A DNA stretch of 64,000 bases from Methylopila sp. Yamaguchi. GTDB taxonomy: Bacteria; Pseudomonadota; Alphaproteobacteria; Rhizobiales; Methylopilaceae. The translations under genes were made by a program, and so were the position numbers. The stretch spans positions 1-64,000 of the forward strand of contig NZ_BAUX01000010.1 in NCBI RefSeq assembly GCF_002897035.1, written 5' to 3'. Shown here in pieces: positions 54,706-64,000 of the stretch. The notes under the pieces are model-generated. The model ran no database searches and had not been told where the DNA came from. It saw only the letters and a list, made by a program, of their open reading frames with translations. Positions within the stretch are counted from its first letter, which is position 1. Every line of letters starts with the position of its first letter.

Positions 54706-55240
54706 CTCATCCCCCGATCTCGCCGTTGCAACCATAATGAGATATGGCGATTTAAATGCAACTTTAAAGTGATTTTCTCTCTCCAGGCCGCCGCGGCGGG
54801 TGCGTCGTCCCCGTTCTTATGCACAGCGTCCGGCAGCGCCGGCGACCGACGGGCGGCATTGATCGATCAGGCGAAAACGGTCTCGGCCGCCGCGTCGTCA
54901 ACCTTTGATTCACGGTTGGCGGACACCATATCTGGTGTCGATGGATGATGCCGCGACGATAGCTAGTGTTCAGCGGGGTGGAAAACCCAGGTTCCGACTC
55001 GACGGCCTGTAAGACTCGATTTACGTTCCTAGCCGTCGCCGAGGCCCGAGGGGCCCGCGCTGCGTAACACCTGACCTTTGATTTCGAACGGCGATTTCGC
55101 GATCGCCGCACCGTCGTCGCGCAATTCGTTTGCGGGCTCGCGCCCGTGCGCTTCGACAATCGTCGCCGGACCCCTCCCGGCATGCGTTTTCGCCTTGACG
55201 CCCCTCGCTGCGGCGTCTTTCGGACTGGAGCTTGGACGAG
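54706..55240. other. 535-base region between LysM-amidase and nrdJ
   Basis: No credible gene. The part next to the amidase (54706-54770) is AT-rich and probably holds its promoter. The nrdJ side has the NrdR-like boxes at 54923-54969 and a roughly 270-base leader down to the nrdJ start, with no recognisable riboswitch. Confidence 0.6.
54923..54969 (+). promoter_or_regulatory. Paired NrdR-like boxes upstream of nrdJ
   Basis: Box 1, ACACCATATCTGGTGT (54923-54938), and box 2, CGACGATAGCTAGTGT (54954-54969), both fit the NrdR consensus acaCwAtATaTwGtgt: box 1 at almost all positions, box 2 in the left ACxA and right TaGTGT half. The centres are 31 bases apart, the spacing typical of NrdR pairs on one face of the helix. 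A possible -35 TTGATT (54905-54910) and -10 ATATCT (54928-54933) with 17-base spacing overlap box 1. Confidence 0.7.
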
Positions 55241-58936
<3,696 letters not shown>

Positions 58937-58959
58937 TTTACGACGACCTATGGCGGGAG

Positions 58960-58990
58960 ACCCAAAGTTGGGAATTCCGACCCAAAGTTT
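58960..58990. repeat. Direct pair of ACCCAAAGTT sequences, left edge of accessory islet
   Basis: ACCCAAAGTTG (58960-58970) and ACCCAAAGTTT (58980-58990) lie exactly 20 bases apart just after nrdJ. The inverse, CAACTTTGGGT, is at 60716-60726 on the other side of the kinase gene. Beyond the 11 identical bases the first copy and the right-hand one also share a GAA a few bases further in. Confidence 0.6.
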
Positions 58991-58997
58991 GAAACAA

Positions 58998-59034
58998 GAC
59001 GCCCGCCCGACATTCTCGTCGGGCGGGCGTCTTT
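58998..59034 (+). terminator. Rho-independent terminator after nrdJ
   Basis: A perfect 14-bp stem GACGCCCGCCCGAC / GTCGGGCGGGCGTC (58998-59011, 59018-59031), extended by AA/TT on the flanks, with loop ATTCTC and a short TTT run. It isolates nrdJ from the genes downstream. Confidence 0.85.
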
Positions 59035-59091
59035 CGAAGCGCCATCGGCCGCTCGGGCTGGTGGGCAGAGCGCATTGCCTTCAGGAGGGCG

Positions 59092-59559
59092 ATGGTGAAG
59101 TCGCTAGGCATCAACCTGATGAAGGGGGTCGTGCATCACGCCGTGCTCGAGGGCACCGCCGACGCCCCGGTCTACGTCGCGCACGACCGCTCGCGTTTCG
59201 ACGCTGACCAAGGTCGCACCGACCAGGCCAACTTCTTCCGGAACCTGTTCAACGAGCTGATCACCCGCCACGCCCCGACCGTCATCGGCTACCGGGTCTC
59301 CCTCGACGCGAAAAAGGCCGACCAAGTCGCCTACCTGCACTTCCCATACGGCGTGCTGAACCTCCTCGCCTACGATCAGCACCTCCCCTCGGAGGGCGTC
59401 ACCAGCAGCGCGTTCACGGCCAAGAGACTGAAGCGGATACCTGCTCCGGGCACCAAGTTCGACAAGCTGGCCTCTTGTGACACAATCTCTGGTTGCCCGA
59501 GCGGTTGGAACAACGACGCGAAGATCGCAGCGCTGACGGCATGGATTTTCCTGACGTGA
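59092..59559 (+). CDS. Small protein of predicted RNase H-like fold (DUF3010-like), partner of a kinase
   Basis: A 155-residue protein. AGGAGG just upstream supports a start at ATG 59092 or GTG 59095. It has a beta-hairpin start KSLGINLMKGVVHHAVLE, helix 46-60, a strand with TVIGYRV (63-69), a Lys/Tyr/Phe-rich segment, and a terminal helix NNDAKIAALTAWIFLT. This order resembles DUF3010 proteins and the RuvC/YqgF type of RNase H fold, but the first-strand Asp of those nucleases is Asn (N8), so catalysis is uncertain. Its end overlaps the kinase start by 19 bases. The codon usage is less GC-rich than in neighbours. Confidence 0.55.
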   Translation: MVKSLGINLMKGVVHHAVLEGTADAPVYVAHDRSRFDADQGRTDQANFFRNLFNELITRHAPTVIGYRVSLDAKKADQVAYLHFPYGVLNLLAYDQHLPSEGVTSSAFTAKRLKRIPAPGTKFDKLASCDTISGCPSGWNNDAKIAALTAWIFLT

Positions 59560-60617
59560 CCTTGCCAGCCAAGCCACTGTTCCAACCAGGCGATGTCGTG
59601 ATTGGCAAGTACCGGATCGACGTCGCGTTGGGCGCCGGACGCTATGGCGAGGTCTATCGGGTCTTCAATACCGCGATGGGCCACATGTCGGCGCTGAAGG
59701 TAATCAACGTCGAGAACCCGGCCCTGCACAAGGCTGGCATCGAGGCCCAGGCTCACGCGTTGTGCCAGCACGACCATGTCGTGAAGATCCTGACGGCCGA
59801 CGTCCTCAATGGCGCGGTGCTGATAGAGATGGAGCTCATCGACGGTCGGTCACTCGAAGACCGCCTGTTCGCTGAGTTCGTCCCCGTCCTCGAGTCGCTC
59901 TCGTTCATCAAGGACATCCTGTTCGCGCTCGAGCACGCCCATGCCCGCGGGATCATCCATCGAGACGTGAAGCCGGGGAACATCATGCTGTGCGCCGGGC
60001 GAGCAAAGCTGTCCGACTTCGGCGTCGCGCTTCATCCCGAGACTGGCCTGAGCCCCAGCGGCCACTCCCACTTCTATCGGCCCCATGCCTCGCCCGAGGC
60101 CTACAACGACAACTCCTTCTCAGCTTCGAGCGACGTGTTCTCGACCGGGCTCACCCTCCTCCGCGCCGTAAACAATCAGGCGGACTGGAAGGGAGCGCTC
60201 GGCGGGGCCGACTGGCGCGCTCTCGTCGGCAACGGCAGGCTCGCCGAGCAGATGGGTGTAGCCCCGTATGTCCCGCGAGCACTCAAGACTATCATCAACA
60301 AAGCGGTCCACCGCGACCCGGGCCAGCGCTACGACAGCGCCGTGAAGTTTCGGGAGGCACTGCAGCGGCTGCGCCCAGCTCGCTCTTGGTTGCGGGAGAG
60401 CGATGACCATTGGAGCTGCTTGTTCAAGGGCAAGACCGAGATCGTGCGCTTCATCCCGGCAACCAACGCCGTGGACTACCTTGTCTCGGGTCGTCGCCAA
60501 TCGTTCGGGTCTAAGAGGTTCGACACCGAGCTGCAGGCTCGCGCCCATATGGCCAAGCTGATCGGTGAGTCGACGCTCCTGAAGCCGACGGCTAGGCGGC
60601 CTCGCCCTGCAGCCTGA
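59541..60617 (+). CDS. Ser/Thr protein kinase with unrecognised C-terminal domain
   Basis: A 358-residue cytosolic kinase with all catalytic motifs: Gly loop GAGRYGEV (31-38), K53 in ALK, HRDVKPGN (140-147), DFG (159-161), SPE (184-186) and D198 in SSDVFSTG. The fold ends near 278. Residues 280-345 (RSWLRESDDHWSCLFKGKTE to HMAKLIGES) form a further domain with alternating aromatic and basic residues that I do not recognise; no membrane helix follows, unlike PASTA-type kinases. Start at 59541 (MDFPDVT) lies within the preceding gene, so translation is coupled. Confidence 0.88.
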   Translation: MDFPDVTLPAKPLFQPGDVVIGKYRIDVALGAGRYGEVYRVFNTAMGHMSALKVINVENPALHKAGIEAQAHALCQHDHVVKILTADVLNGAVLIEMELIDGRSLEDRLFAEFVPVLESLSFIKDILFALEHAHARGIIHRDVKPGNIMLCAGRAKLSDFGVALHPETGLSPSGHSHFYRPHASPEAYNDNSFSASSDVFSTGLTLLRAVNNQADWKGALGGADWRALVGNGRLAEQMGVAPYVPRALKTIINKAVHRDPGQRYDSAVKFREALQRLRPARSWLRESDDHWSCLFKGKTEIVRFIPATNAVDYLVSGRRQSFGSKRFDTELQARAHMAKLIGESTLLKPTARRPRPAA

Positions 60618-60715
60618 TAGACACTGGATGAAACCCTGTCCCGAACTCATCCTTGGCAGCCGTGTCCAGGTCGAACGGAAGTCGAGCCATCATTCGGGAT
60701 CGGATCTCAAGTTCT

Positions 60716-60726
60716 CAACTTTGGGT
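60716..60726. repeat. Inverted copy of ACCCAAAGTTG, right edge of accessory islet
   Basis: CAACTTTGGGT is the exact reverse complement of 58960-58970. Read inward, the next bases (AGAAC against GGAAT) are partly similar. The 1.77-kb span between the two contains the two-gene module and the nrdJ terminator. Confidence 0.55.
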
Positions 60727-60892
60727 TCAATCGCTACCCAACATAGGCTCCGGTTTTCAAGCGCCCCAAAATGCCCTCGGACGCAATCGGTTATCGATGG
60801 GGCTGTTCGCAACTTTGCGTCTCCCGCCAACCTACAGAAAGGCGCTCTCTACGAGCTTTCGGTTGTCCGTAACTGGACCATACTTTCGAAAC

Positions 60893-60920: not shown

Positions 60921-61036
60921 AAGGCGTTAAGGAACATACGACGAACGGCTGCAGACGCTGCGCCGGGATCGACGGAGCCCCCTTCGGGCACGGGATCTGC
61001 CCCGCCCGCCAGACGCGCCATCGCTCGAAGCTTCTT

Positions 61037-61132: not shown

Positions 61133-61834
61133 ATGCTGACGCGCAAACAGTACGAACTGCTCCGCTTCATCCATGAGCGGCTGAAGGAGACCGGCGTGCC
61201 GCCGTCCTTCGACGAGATGAAGGACGCGCTGGACCTTAAGTCGAAGTCCGGGATCCACCGGCTCATCATGGCCCTCGAGGAGCGCGGGTTCATCCGTCGC
61301 CTTCCAAACCGGGCCCGGGCTCTCGAGGTGGTGAAGCTGCCGGAGGCGGCTGCGCCGCCCGTCTCGCGGCCCACCGGCCGGTTCGCGCCCAATGTCATCG
61401 AGGGCAATCTCGGGCGCGTGCGCCCGCCGCAGTCGGACGATGACGACAATCGCATGGTCGCGATCCCCGTCATGGGCAGGATCGCCGCCGGCGTGCCGAT
61501 CGAGGCGATCCAGGCGAAAAGCCACACCATCGCGGTCTCCCCCGACATGCTGTCCACGGGCGAGCACTTCGCGCTCGAAGTGCGCGGCGACTCGATGATT
61601 GAGGCGGGGATCCTCGATGGCGACCTCGTTCTGATCCGCAAGCAGACCGTCGCGGACACCGGCGACATCGTGGTCGCGTTGGTCGACGACGAGGAGGCGA
61701 CGCTGAAGCGCCTGCGCAAGCGCGGAGCGTCGATCGCCCTCGAGGCGGCCAATCCGGCCTACGAAACGCGCATCTTCGGCCCGGACCGTGTGGCGATCCA
61801 GGGACGGCTCGTTGGGCTCATCCGGCGCTACTGA
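61133..61834 (+). CDS. lexA: SOS repressor LexA
   Basis: A 233-residue repressor and self-cleaving peptidase. The N-terminal winged helix (1-66, [20 protein letters not shown]) is followed by a linker longer than in Escherichia coli, as usual for this class. Cleavage site is A119-G120 in GRIAAGVP; the dyad is S154 (GDSMIEAG) and K192 (ATLKRL). Two SOS boxes upstream indicate self-regulation. Its last 7 bases overlap the convergent comEC gene. Confidence 0.97.
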
Positions 61835-64000
61835 TCGTCGTCCGAAGGCGCGTCGTCGTCCGCCGGATCGGTGGGATCGACTGGTTTTGCGACAGCGTTC
61901 GCCTTCGGGGGGCGGCGCGGTGCGAAGCGCAGCGCCAGAACGTCCGGCGGCGGGCGGACGATCGACGCGGATCCCTCCCAGGGCCGATGTCCGGCGGGAT
62001 CGCGCGCCGCGGTCGCGATAAAGGCGTCGCCCTGGCGGGTCAGCGACAGCGCGCCGGTGGCCCGCAGGGCGGCGCGGTCGATCACGGCCGCCGTCTCCGC
62101 GCAGGCGGGGGGCGCATCGAGCCGGGTGATGACGAGCGCCGCGCGGCGGCAGTCCTCCTCGAACGCGCGGGCGTCCCAGACCAGCGCCACGTCGCGTCCG
62201 TCGTCGAGGCGGCCGACGCAGCCATAAGGGTCGCAGCGCGGCGTCGCTGGTCCTGGGGGCCGACCATCGCGGTCCGCGATGTCGCCGTCGGCCGCGAGCC
62301 AGACCTTCGCGGCGAAATTGGTCGCGCGGGCGCCGAGCAGCGCCAGCCGGCCGTCAGGGCCCCGGATCGCCGCGGCGCGTCCGTCGCGGTCGATCGCGAC
62401 GTCCGGCCGCGCAGGCGCCGCCGCCAAAGCGAGGCCCGCCGCGATCATTGGCGCGGCGGCGTACCGGAGGGCGGTGCGCCACACGCAGAGCCAGGCCAGC
62501 CCTAGTGACAGCAGCGCGAGCGCGGTCGAGCCGAAGGCAGGGATCGCGCGCTCGGAGCCTGGCCAGGAGGCGACCGCGCGGGCGATCGCCAGCACGCCGC
62601 TGAGGCCCCATCCCATCAAGGTCCACCACGGCCCATCGAGGCCGAGCGGCGCGAACAGCAGGCCGCCGACCACGCAGGGCATGACGATCAGGCTGATCAG
62701 CGGCGTCGCAAGCGCGTTTCCAGCGAGCGCATAGGGCGTCACCCGGTGGAAGTGGTAGGCGGCGAAGGGCGCGGTCGCGAGCCCCGCCACCAGCGTGGTG
62801 ACGAGCGCGAGCGCGGCTGCAGTCCGCAGCCATCGCAGCGCGCGCGCCGCCCGGCCGTCGGGCGGCGGCCGCTCGTCGCGCGGCCGGGCCTCGAACCAGG
62901 CGACGAGCGCCGCGACGGCCGCGAACGACATCTGGAAACTCGGACCCAAGACGGCCTCGGGCGTCAGCGCCATGACGCACAGCGCCGCAAGCGCGAGGTT
63001 GCGCGGGGTGACGGCCGGGCGGCCGACGACGATGGCCGCGAACACGATCGCGACCATCAGGAAGGACCGCTGGGTCGCCACCTCCGCCCCGGAGAGCGCG
63101 AGGTAGAACGCGGCGCCCGCAAGCGCGACGACCGCCGCGACGCTCTTTACCGGCCAGGCGAGCGCCGCGCGTTGCGACAGCGCGAGCGCGGCGCGCACCA
63201 GCCAGAACAGGGTGCCCGCGACCAGCGCCATGTGCAGCCCCGAGATCGAGAGAATGTGGCTGAGGCCGGCCGCGCGCATTTCGTCTTCGACGGTCGCGCT
63301 GATCGGCCCCCGCACGCCGGTGACGAGAGCCGCCGCGACGGCGCCTTCGTCGCCGGCGACCGTGGCCGAGATCCGCGCCGTCAGGCGCTCCCTCAACCGT
63401 TCGAGCCGCGCGGCCAGCCGCTCGGCCGGGCCTGCGTCCGTCGCTGGCCCCAAATTGCGGACGTCCCTTGCCTGCTGCCCTGTCGCGCCCACGGCCTCGA
63501 AGAAGGCCGCCCGGGCGAAGTCGTAGCCGCCGGGCCGCACCGGCCCCTGGGGCGGCCGCCAGAACGCCGAAAGGGTCAGGCGGTCGCCGGCGGAGAGGGC
63601 CGGCCCCGCGCCGAGCGTCACCCGCGCCCGTCGGGGTCGCTCGCCGGGACTGAGCGACCCAAGCCGCTCGAGCTCCAGGGTGATCCGGCGCTGGCCGCGG
63701 TCGCTCGGCTCGATCGCGATCACCCGGCCCGTGGCCTCCGCCCGAAACGCGCGCGTCAGGGCCGGGGCCTCGACGCGGACGGTCGCGAGCTTGGCCGCGA
63801 GGAATCCCGCTGGCCCGAACGCGAGGACAAGCGCGAGCCCGAGGGCGACGAAGCGGCGCCGCGCGGCGACAGCCAGCCCCGCGCCCAGCCCCGCGAGCAG
63901 GACGGCGGCCCAGAGTTCGGGCTCGTGCGCCGCGGTGAAGTAGAGGATGACCCCGGCGCCGAAGGCGACCGGCGCCCACAGCGCGAAGCGCCCTGCGTCG
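61828..64000 (-). CDS. comEC: ComEC/Rec2-family DNA uptake protein (N-terminus outside window)
   Basis: At least 724 residues; the frame stays open to the last base of the window and the start is upstream of it. The visible part begins with two or three membrane helices (63740-64000, not a shadow: [14 protein letters not shown] and [16 protein letters not shown]), then an OB-like periplasmic domain, then the competence domain of about eight helices with [15 protein letters not shown]. No complete beta-lactamase-like C-terminal domain is seen, so this is the shorter ComEC form. It would form the channel for DNA passage into the cytosol. Confidence 0.9.

Follow-up and report, generated by a model that had tools for sequence, protein, structure and literature searches.

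A small RuvC-like gene paired with a protein kinase on an islet behind nrdJ in Methylopila sp. Yamaguchi, a candidate abortive-infection module

The two-gene islet and its insertion signature

The window, meaning the whole stretch of DNA that was analysed, comprises 64,000 nucleotides of Methylopila sp. Yamaguchi (contig NZ_BAUX01000010.1, positions 1 to 64,000, forward strand). Between nrdJ and lexA it contains a gene for a 155-residue protein and a complete protein kinase gene, which overlap by 19 bases (59541-59559), the kinase starting with the ATG at 59541. The small-gene ATG is preceded at a distance of 3 nt by AGGAGG (59083-59088), and the element containing both genes has a GC content of 62.4 %, compared with 68.4 % for the window, 68.7 % for nrdJ and 75.7 % for the gene at 61828-63999. 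The original prediction had described this arrangement, including the ribosome-binding site and the lower GC content, and its coordinates were confirmed. Both are considered real genes and not chance open reading frames (ORFs) because homologues of both occur in other families. Orthologues of nrdJ were found in 14 of the 18 genomes of the family. The features of the locus are as follows.

55232-58936, plus strand: nrdJ (B12-dependent ribonucleotide reductase), upstream of the insertion slot, context only (ORF list)
58946-58950, no strand: left copy of the 5-bp target-site duplication ACCTA (sequence, empty-site comparison)
58951-58974, plus strand: left terminal inverted repeat TGGCGGGAGACCCAAAGTTGGGAA, 92 % complementary to the right arm
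58979-58989, plus strand: sub-terminal repeat GACCCAAAGTT, second copy, 20 bp from the first (repeat count)
58996-59033, plus strand: perfect 16-bp hairpin, an insulating terminator-like structure within the element (pairing)
59083-59088, plus strand: ribosome-binding site AGGAGG (sequence)
59092-59559, plus strand: small gene, predicted RuvC-fold pseudonuclease-like protein, 155 aa (ORF list, model, profile alignment)
59541-60617, plus strand: eukaryotic-type protein kinase with a small C-terminal domain, 358 aa (ORF, domain match, tree)
60717-60727, minus strand: sub-terminal repeat AACCCAAAGTT, inverted (repeat count)
60806-60829, minus strand: right terminal inverted repeat, matching the left arm
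60830-60834, no strand: right copy of the target-site duplication ACCTA (sequence, empty-site comparison)
61133-61834, plus strand: lexA, downstream of the slot, context only (LexA_DNA_bind and Peptidase_S24 matches)

The window copy carries a full insertion signature, which the original prediction had missed. The element is 1,879 bp long, with 24-bp inverted repeats at both ends (58951-58974 and 60806-60829) and a 5-bp ACCTA duplication; the terminal repeats match at 22 of 24 positions, against a best value of 18 of 24 among 500 composition shuffles. The sub-terminal repeat GACCCAAAGTT occurs inside both element ends, with four matches in the window where 0.31 were expected, and no further copy of either terminal repeat sequence was found in the whole genome. 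An empty site is present in G142, the nearest congener sharing this gene order (nrdJ end 95 % identical at the DNA level, LexA 100 % identical), and excising 58951-60834 from the window makes it collinear with that site. The small gene was not found in nine congeners, all of which retain nrdJ, or in two further genomes of the same family in the sampled set, as expected for the variable islet that had been proposed.

The islet had also been described as isolated by a terminator on its left. The hairpin at 58996-59033 is indeed fully paired (16/16, about -38 kcal/mol); it has a short T tail, is missing from the terminator-scan list and lies inside the inserted element. Its position behind the left end is kept in the window and in the congener G252 (L067, about 265-310), with different arms. 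At 60941 the nrdJ end recurs as a 14-bp direct repeat; this could have marked an att site, but it is probably a coincidence and was discarded.

The islet is best read as a transposon-like, non-autonomous cassette that has inserted immediately 3' of nrdJ. The inverted ends, sub-terminal repeats and short target duplication characteristic of Mu/Tn7/Tn5053/IS21-like elements are all present, and the element shares with the Tn7, Tn5053 and IS21-like group TG...CA ends, sub-terminal repeats, a 5-bp duplication and insertion directly 3' of one conserved gene. Unlike those elements it has no internal transposase genes: no transposase ORF lies within it, and the TnsB/MuA-type C-terminal domain (PF09299), the only transposase type searched for, is absent from this genome. 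Tn7-like site-specific insertion is an attractive, unproven way in which the element may have arrived.

Related left ends were found just behind nrdJ in G252 (79 bp at 87 % identity to the window element) and, decayed, in G235 (L019/L063; 5 of 24 positions mismatched), whose locus has no recognisable right end or cargo; the right end was not found in G252 either. Across 397 genomes the left end matched only in the genome studied here and in G252, a blastn search of plasmids with the element ends gave nothing meaningful, and no bounding inverted repeats were found around the other inserts in this slot (G215, G193, G111, G252, G235). In these two genomes the left end may belong to a family of nrdJ-directed elements or may be an old feature of the nrdJ 3' end. 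The latter would fit an alternative account of the origin of the islet, though not of its function, in which the left end and hairpin are the native nrdJ 3' region of the genus, the islet is no transposable element and the right repeat is secondary. The confinement of the left end to nrdJ, the missing right ends in G252 and G235 and the lack of both an internal transposase and a TnsB/MuA C-terminal type in the genome agree with this account, which we nevertheless consider rather unlikely in view of the 22/24 inverted repeats, the exact ACCTA duplication and the collinearity with G142 that is restored by removing 58951-60834.

The small protein and the kinase

An AlphaFold2 model of the small protein, built from four sequences only (pLDDT 89, pTM 0.85), was compared with known structures using Foldseek and VIA-align, and RuvC occupied all of the first eight rows. 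The best superposition covers 147 of 155 residues at 2.5 Å (Z 18.7, TM 0.80), with sequence identities of 10-20 %. The model shows a complete RuvC (RNase H) fold, and this bears out the RNase H-like assignment first proposed for the protein. Profiles built on the close members pick up RuvC itself in four other genomes, and hhalign of the small-protein profile against those RuvCs gives 97 % at E 1e-10. The family libraries contained no match for the protein, and none of the models in the PADLOC defence library covers it.

The active site fared differently from the fold. RuvC Asp7 aligns with Asn8 of the window protein; at this position the four close members have Asn, Ser, Asp or Asn, and the phage and restriction branches described below have Arg. 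RuvC Glu66 aligns with Arg68, which does not vary among the four close members, and all members aligned have Arg or Lys there; the Asp138/Asp141 acid pair in the last helix is, by alignment, not kept in the window group. Given the loss of most catalytic acids and the substitution of Glu66 in the alignment, the small protein is regarded as a probable pseudonuclease, and the earlier proposal of a nuclease unit is not upheld. The RuvC Holliday junction resolvase thus shares its whole predicted fold with the window protein, which differs in having lost most active-site acids and in not lying beside ruvAB.

The kinase matches Pkinase at 1.5e-33, its nearest solved relatives are StkP and PknA/B, and its catalytic residues are intact (Lys53, HRD 140-142, Asn147, DFG 159-161). 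A C-terminal region of about 75 residues follows the kinase domain and is the only region modelled with confidence; the kinase structure model as a whole was too poor (mean pLDDT 53), and its Foldseek result was set aside. The library matches are Pkinase and PK_Tyr_Ser-Thr, with none to HipA, and the kinase does not fall in the HipA/HipBST toxin kinase family. Its domain matches PD-T4-6 models at E 1e-44, a value to be read with the similar scores of mad6 and other systems' models, the domain being common to many kinases. The PD-T4-6 and Stk2 anti-phage kinases act as single genes, whereas in the copies of the pair described here the kinase always has a RuvC-like partner. The locus is not a MADS system (mad1-mad8): the element has no further gene, and its neighbours are nrdJ and lexA.

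The pair in other genomes, plasmids and phages, and the slot behind nrdJ

Close homologues of the small protein were found in G230 and Mesorhizobium NFR06, behind nrdJ, and in G514, behind groEL, with a kinase next in each. The kinase therefore directly follows the small gene in all four close members, and the pair lies behind nrdJ in three of the four. In Mesorhizobium NFR06 (G229; L003:1943-2958) the small gene is intact and the kinase is frameshifted in its C-lobe, reflecting either a pseudogene or an assembly error. Weak matches in G174 (L004, L005) were attributed to chance.

A tblastn search of plasmids and phages with the window small protein gave no match, nor did its three close homologues match plasmids or viral contigs, because the family is too diverged; relatives were found via the kinase instead. 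The best E-values of the kinase among plasmids were to Methylocystis and Novosphingobium, each with a gene for 153-155 residues directly upstream, and both pairs (Novosphingobium pHR1a and Methylocystis pMpar-1; L091, L092) are flanked by hsdS and hsdR within Type I restriction operons. The Methylocystis plasmid copy is also accompanied by a GIY-YIG PDC-S14 gene. Providencia and Klebsiella plasmid kinases have an upstream gene for 152-153 residues, and no such small gene precedes the Caballeronia and Ruegeria T6SS kinases.

Lambdoid phages carry, upstream of stk, a gene whose product is 93-94 % identical to the small protein of Klebsiella; the order in these phages is cI, DUF3024, RuvC-like Holliday junction resolvase (RefSeq annotation) and stk. 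This phage-type pair was found in 223 of 5,426 E. coli genomes and in 37 viral contigs. Bacillus SPbeta-like phages carry a diverged small gene, also with a kinase behind it, as in phage SPbetaL7 (L137:1986-3538), where the kinase is unannotated and the genes overlap by 4 bp. The kinase adjoined the small gene in all 39 viral loci checked, and the spacing between the two genes ranges from -19 to +32 across members. The search for homologues thus upheld the pairing that had been predicted, in the four close members, four plasmid pairs and the 39 viral loci. From Alphaproteobacteria to Bacillus phages, each copy that was checked pairs a RuvC-like gene with a kinase.

In a kinase tree with few outgroups and long branches, the 12 paired kinases fall on one side of a branch with support 100/99 and the six unpaired kinases on the other, and pairing requires one change compared with 5.2 in shuffles. 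The profile of the window small protein gave 3 % and 8 % against the phage and restriction groups, neither significant, with the phage alignment (3 %) collinear, and the C-terminal domains of the kinases are not demonstrably homologous across groups. A common origin of the small proteins across the branches is suggested instead by their fold or annotation, length, gene order, kinase lineage and the basic residue at Glu66.

The original prediction had also suggested a defence or stress islet, and defence or toxin-antitoxin genes do occupy the same slot elsewhere. In G252 a 525-residue reverse transcriptase matching Drt2 (L067:618-2195; 5.5e-125) lies behind nrdJ and the shared left end; DRT2 is a demonstrated antiviral system (PMC12039810). 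Elsewhere in the genus the slot holds a PDC-M41A/B candidate defence pair in G215 (L065), a pentapeptide protein in G193 (L068), and an MBL-fold gene, an E2-E1-JAB fusion and a patatin in G111 (L070). The corresponding Mesorhizobium slot, bounded by nrdJ and a VOC gene (L054-L057), contains HicAB in three genomes and HTH plus ImmA/IrrE in one, and in NFR06 it contains the RuvC-like/kinase pair. G230 has the pair in its nrdJ slot, and within its genus RES/Xre occupies the slot in G106 (L072) and the start of the same antitoxin gene in G070. Defence or toxin-antitoxin genes therefore occur in the slot in three genera, and these examples suggest that the nrdJ 3' end may be enriched in such genes, a candidate defence and toxin-antitoxin hotspot in Hyphomicrobiales.

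Proposed function and alternatives

The closest systems are the stk loci of phages 933W and phi24B. As in the window, stk overlaps an upstream gene, annotated as a RuvC-like Holliday junction resolvase, in the same order and with products of about 150 and 350 residues; the kinases belong to one lineage, and a basic residue replaces the RuvC catalytic Glu. The window pair shows features of a 933W Stk-type module, namely intact kinase residues, an overlapping upstream gene of about 150 residues and Stk lineage. In the prophage the pair follows cI, in the window it is carried by a small element behind nrdJ, and identities between the two are 22 % for the kinases and about 11-16 % for the small proteins. 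The pairs of the Type I restriction operons (pHR1a, pMpar-1) have kinases of the same lineage, 28-29 % identical to that of the window, and small proteins 14-15 % identical; unlike them, the window pair has no adjoining restriction genes.

Work on 933W reportedly concerns the kinase and not the upstream gene, and we know of no phenotype for any member of the paired family outside 933W. The pairing had been put forward as undescribed, and this holds in part. Annotations of lambdoid phages already list the two genes in this order ('RuvC-like Holliday junction resolvase | serine-threonine kinase'), and two articles present Stk as an abortive-infection factor (PMC6356687, PMC3681748): HK97 infection activates the 933W kinase, which aborts that infection (PMC3681748, PMC6356687), and PMC6356687, citing Friedman 2011, refers to it as a prophage abortive-infection system. 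The stk gene is expressed from pRM in lysogens (PMC3430580). No paper on a two-gene system was found in the open-access literature, which likewise yielded no description of a conserved RuvC-like/kinase pair, of its presence in Type I restriction operons or of the nrdJ slot. Stk and the phage gene order are already known; the two-gene system, its restriction-operon location and the nrdJ slot appear to be new.

The simplest reading is that the window pair would be a chromosomal, mobile branch of the 933W Stk system, and the islet is probably a mobile two-gene abortive-infection module of that kind, with the dead RuvC as sensor or brake. We infer from these comparisons the defence activity of the window copy, the sensor or brake role, the trigger and the phosphorylation targets. 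The small RuvC-fold protein, lacking the RuvC active site, would most likely act as a sensor and as a brake that keeps the kinase silent, and may be triggered either by some component of the phage or by phage DNA in an unusual state (branched, replicating), the ligand it would have inherited. Infection would release the kinase, which would phosphorylate host or phage targets and so stop the cell before phage is made.

A classical toxin-antitoxin system, in which the kinase is a constitutive toxin and the RuvC-like protein a labile antitoxin that maintains the element and has no anti-phage role, could also account for a pair of short genes that overlap, the smaller leading, for an element without other cargo and for the HicAB and RES/Xre modules in the nrdJ slot elsewhere. 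We judge it unlikely, as the small protein is by its model a whole RuvC fold and not a DNA-binding antitoxin type, and the two pairs inside Type I restriction operons point to defence. It is very improbable that the pair is a kinase-controlled nuclease whose small protein, once phosphorylated, cuts branched DNA or RNA: the predicted RuvC fold and the probable nucleic-acid binding surface that goes with it would suit this function, which is opposed by the Asn, Ser, Asp or Asn at Asp7 in close members (Arg in the phage and restriction branches), the Arg or Lys at Glu66 in all aligned members and the loss of Asp138/Asp141 in the window group. Slightly less credible still is a host regulatory pair tied to nrdJ or lexA, serving nucleotide supply or SOS control with no defence role. 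Such a pair might be expected because three of the four close members have it behind nrdJ and because lexA adjoins it in the window; against it stand the location behind groEL in G514, the absence from nine congeners that keep nrdJ, the precise insertion with target duplication and the unrelated defence cargo in the same slot.

Beyond the abortive-infection module favoured for the window, it is conceivable, though on balance doubtful, that the pairs form a widespread, unrecognised two-gene immune family of chromosomes, Type I restriction operons, lambdoid prophages and Bacillus SPbeta-like phages, in which a RuvC without active site would sense phage replication or recombination DNA and directly switch an abortive kinase, while a passenger-only, nrdJ-targeted element would shuttle cassettes (the pair, DRT2) into one slot in the genus.

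Stk has so far been treated as a lone abortive-infection gene, and its off-state and switching lack an explanation in the work cited. The data suggest that Stk does not travel alone, and the RuvC-like gene upstream in every copy checked offers a concrete candidate for its sensor or brake. The module is also found within restriction operons and at the nrdJ-linked slot, and this collecting point for defence cassettes is a place in which to search for further systems.
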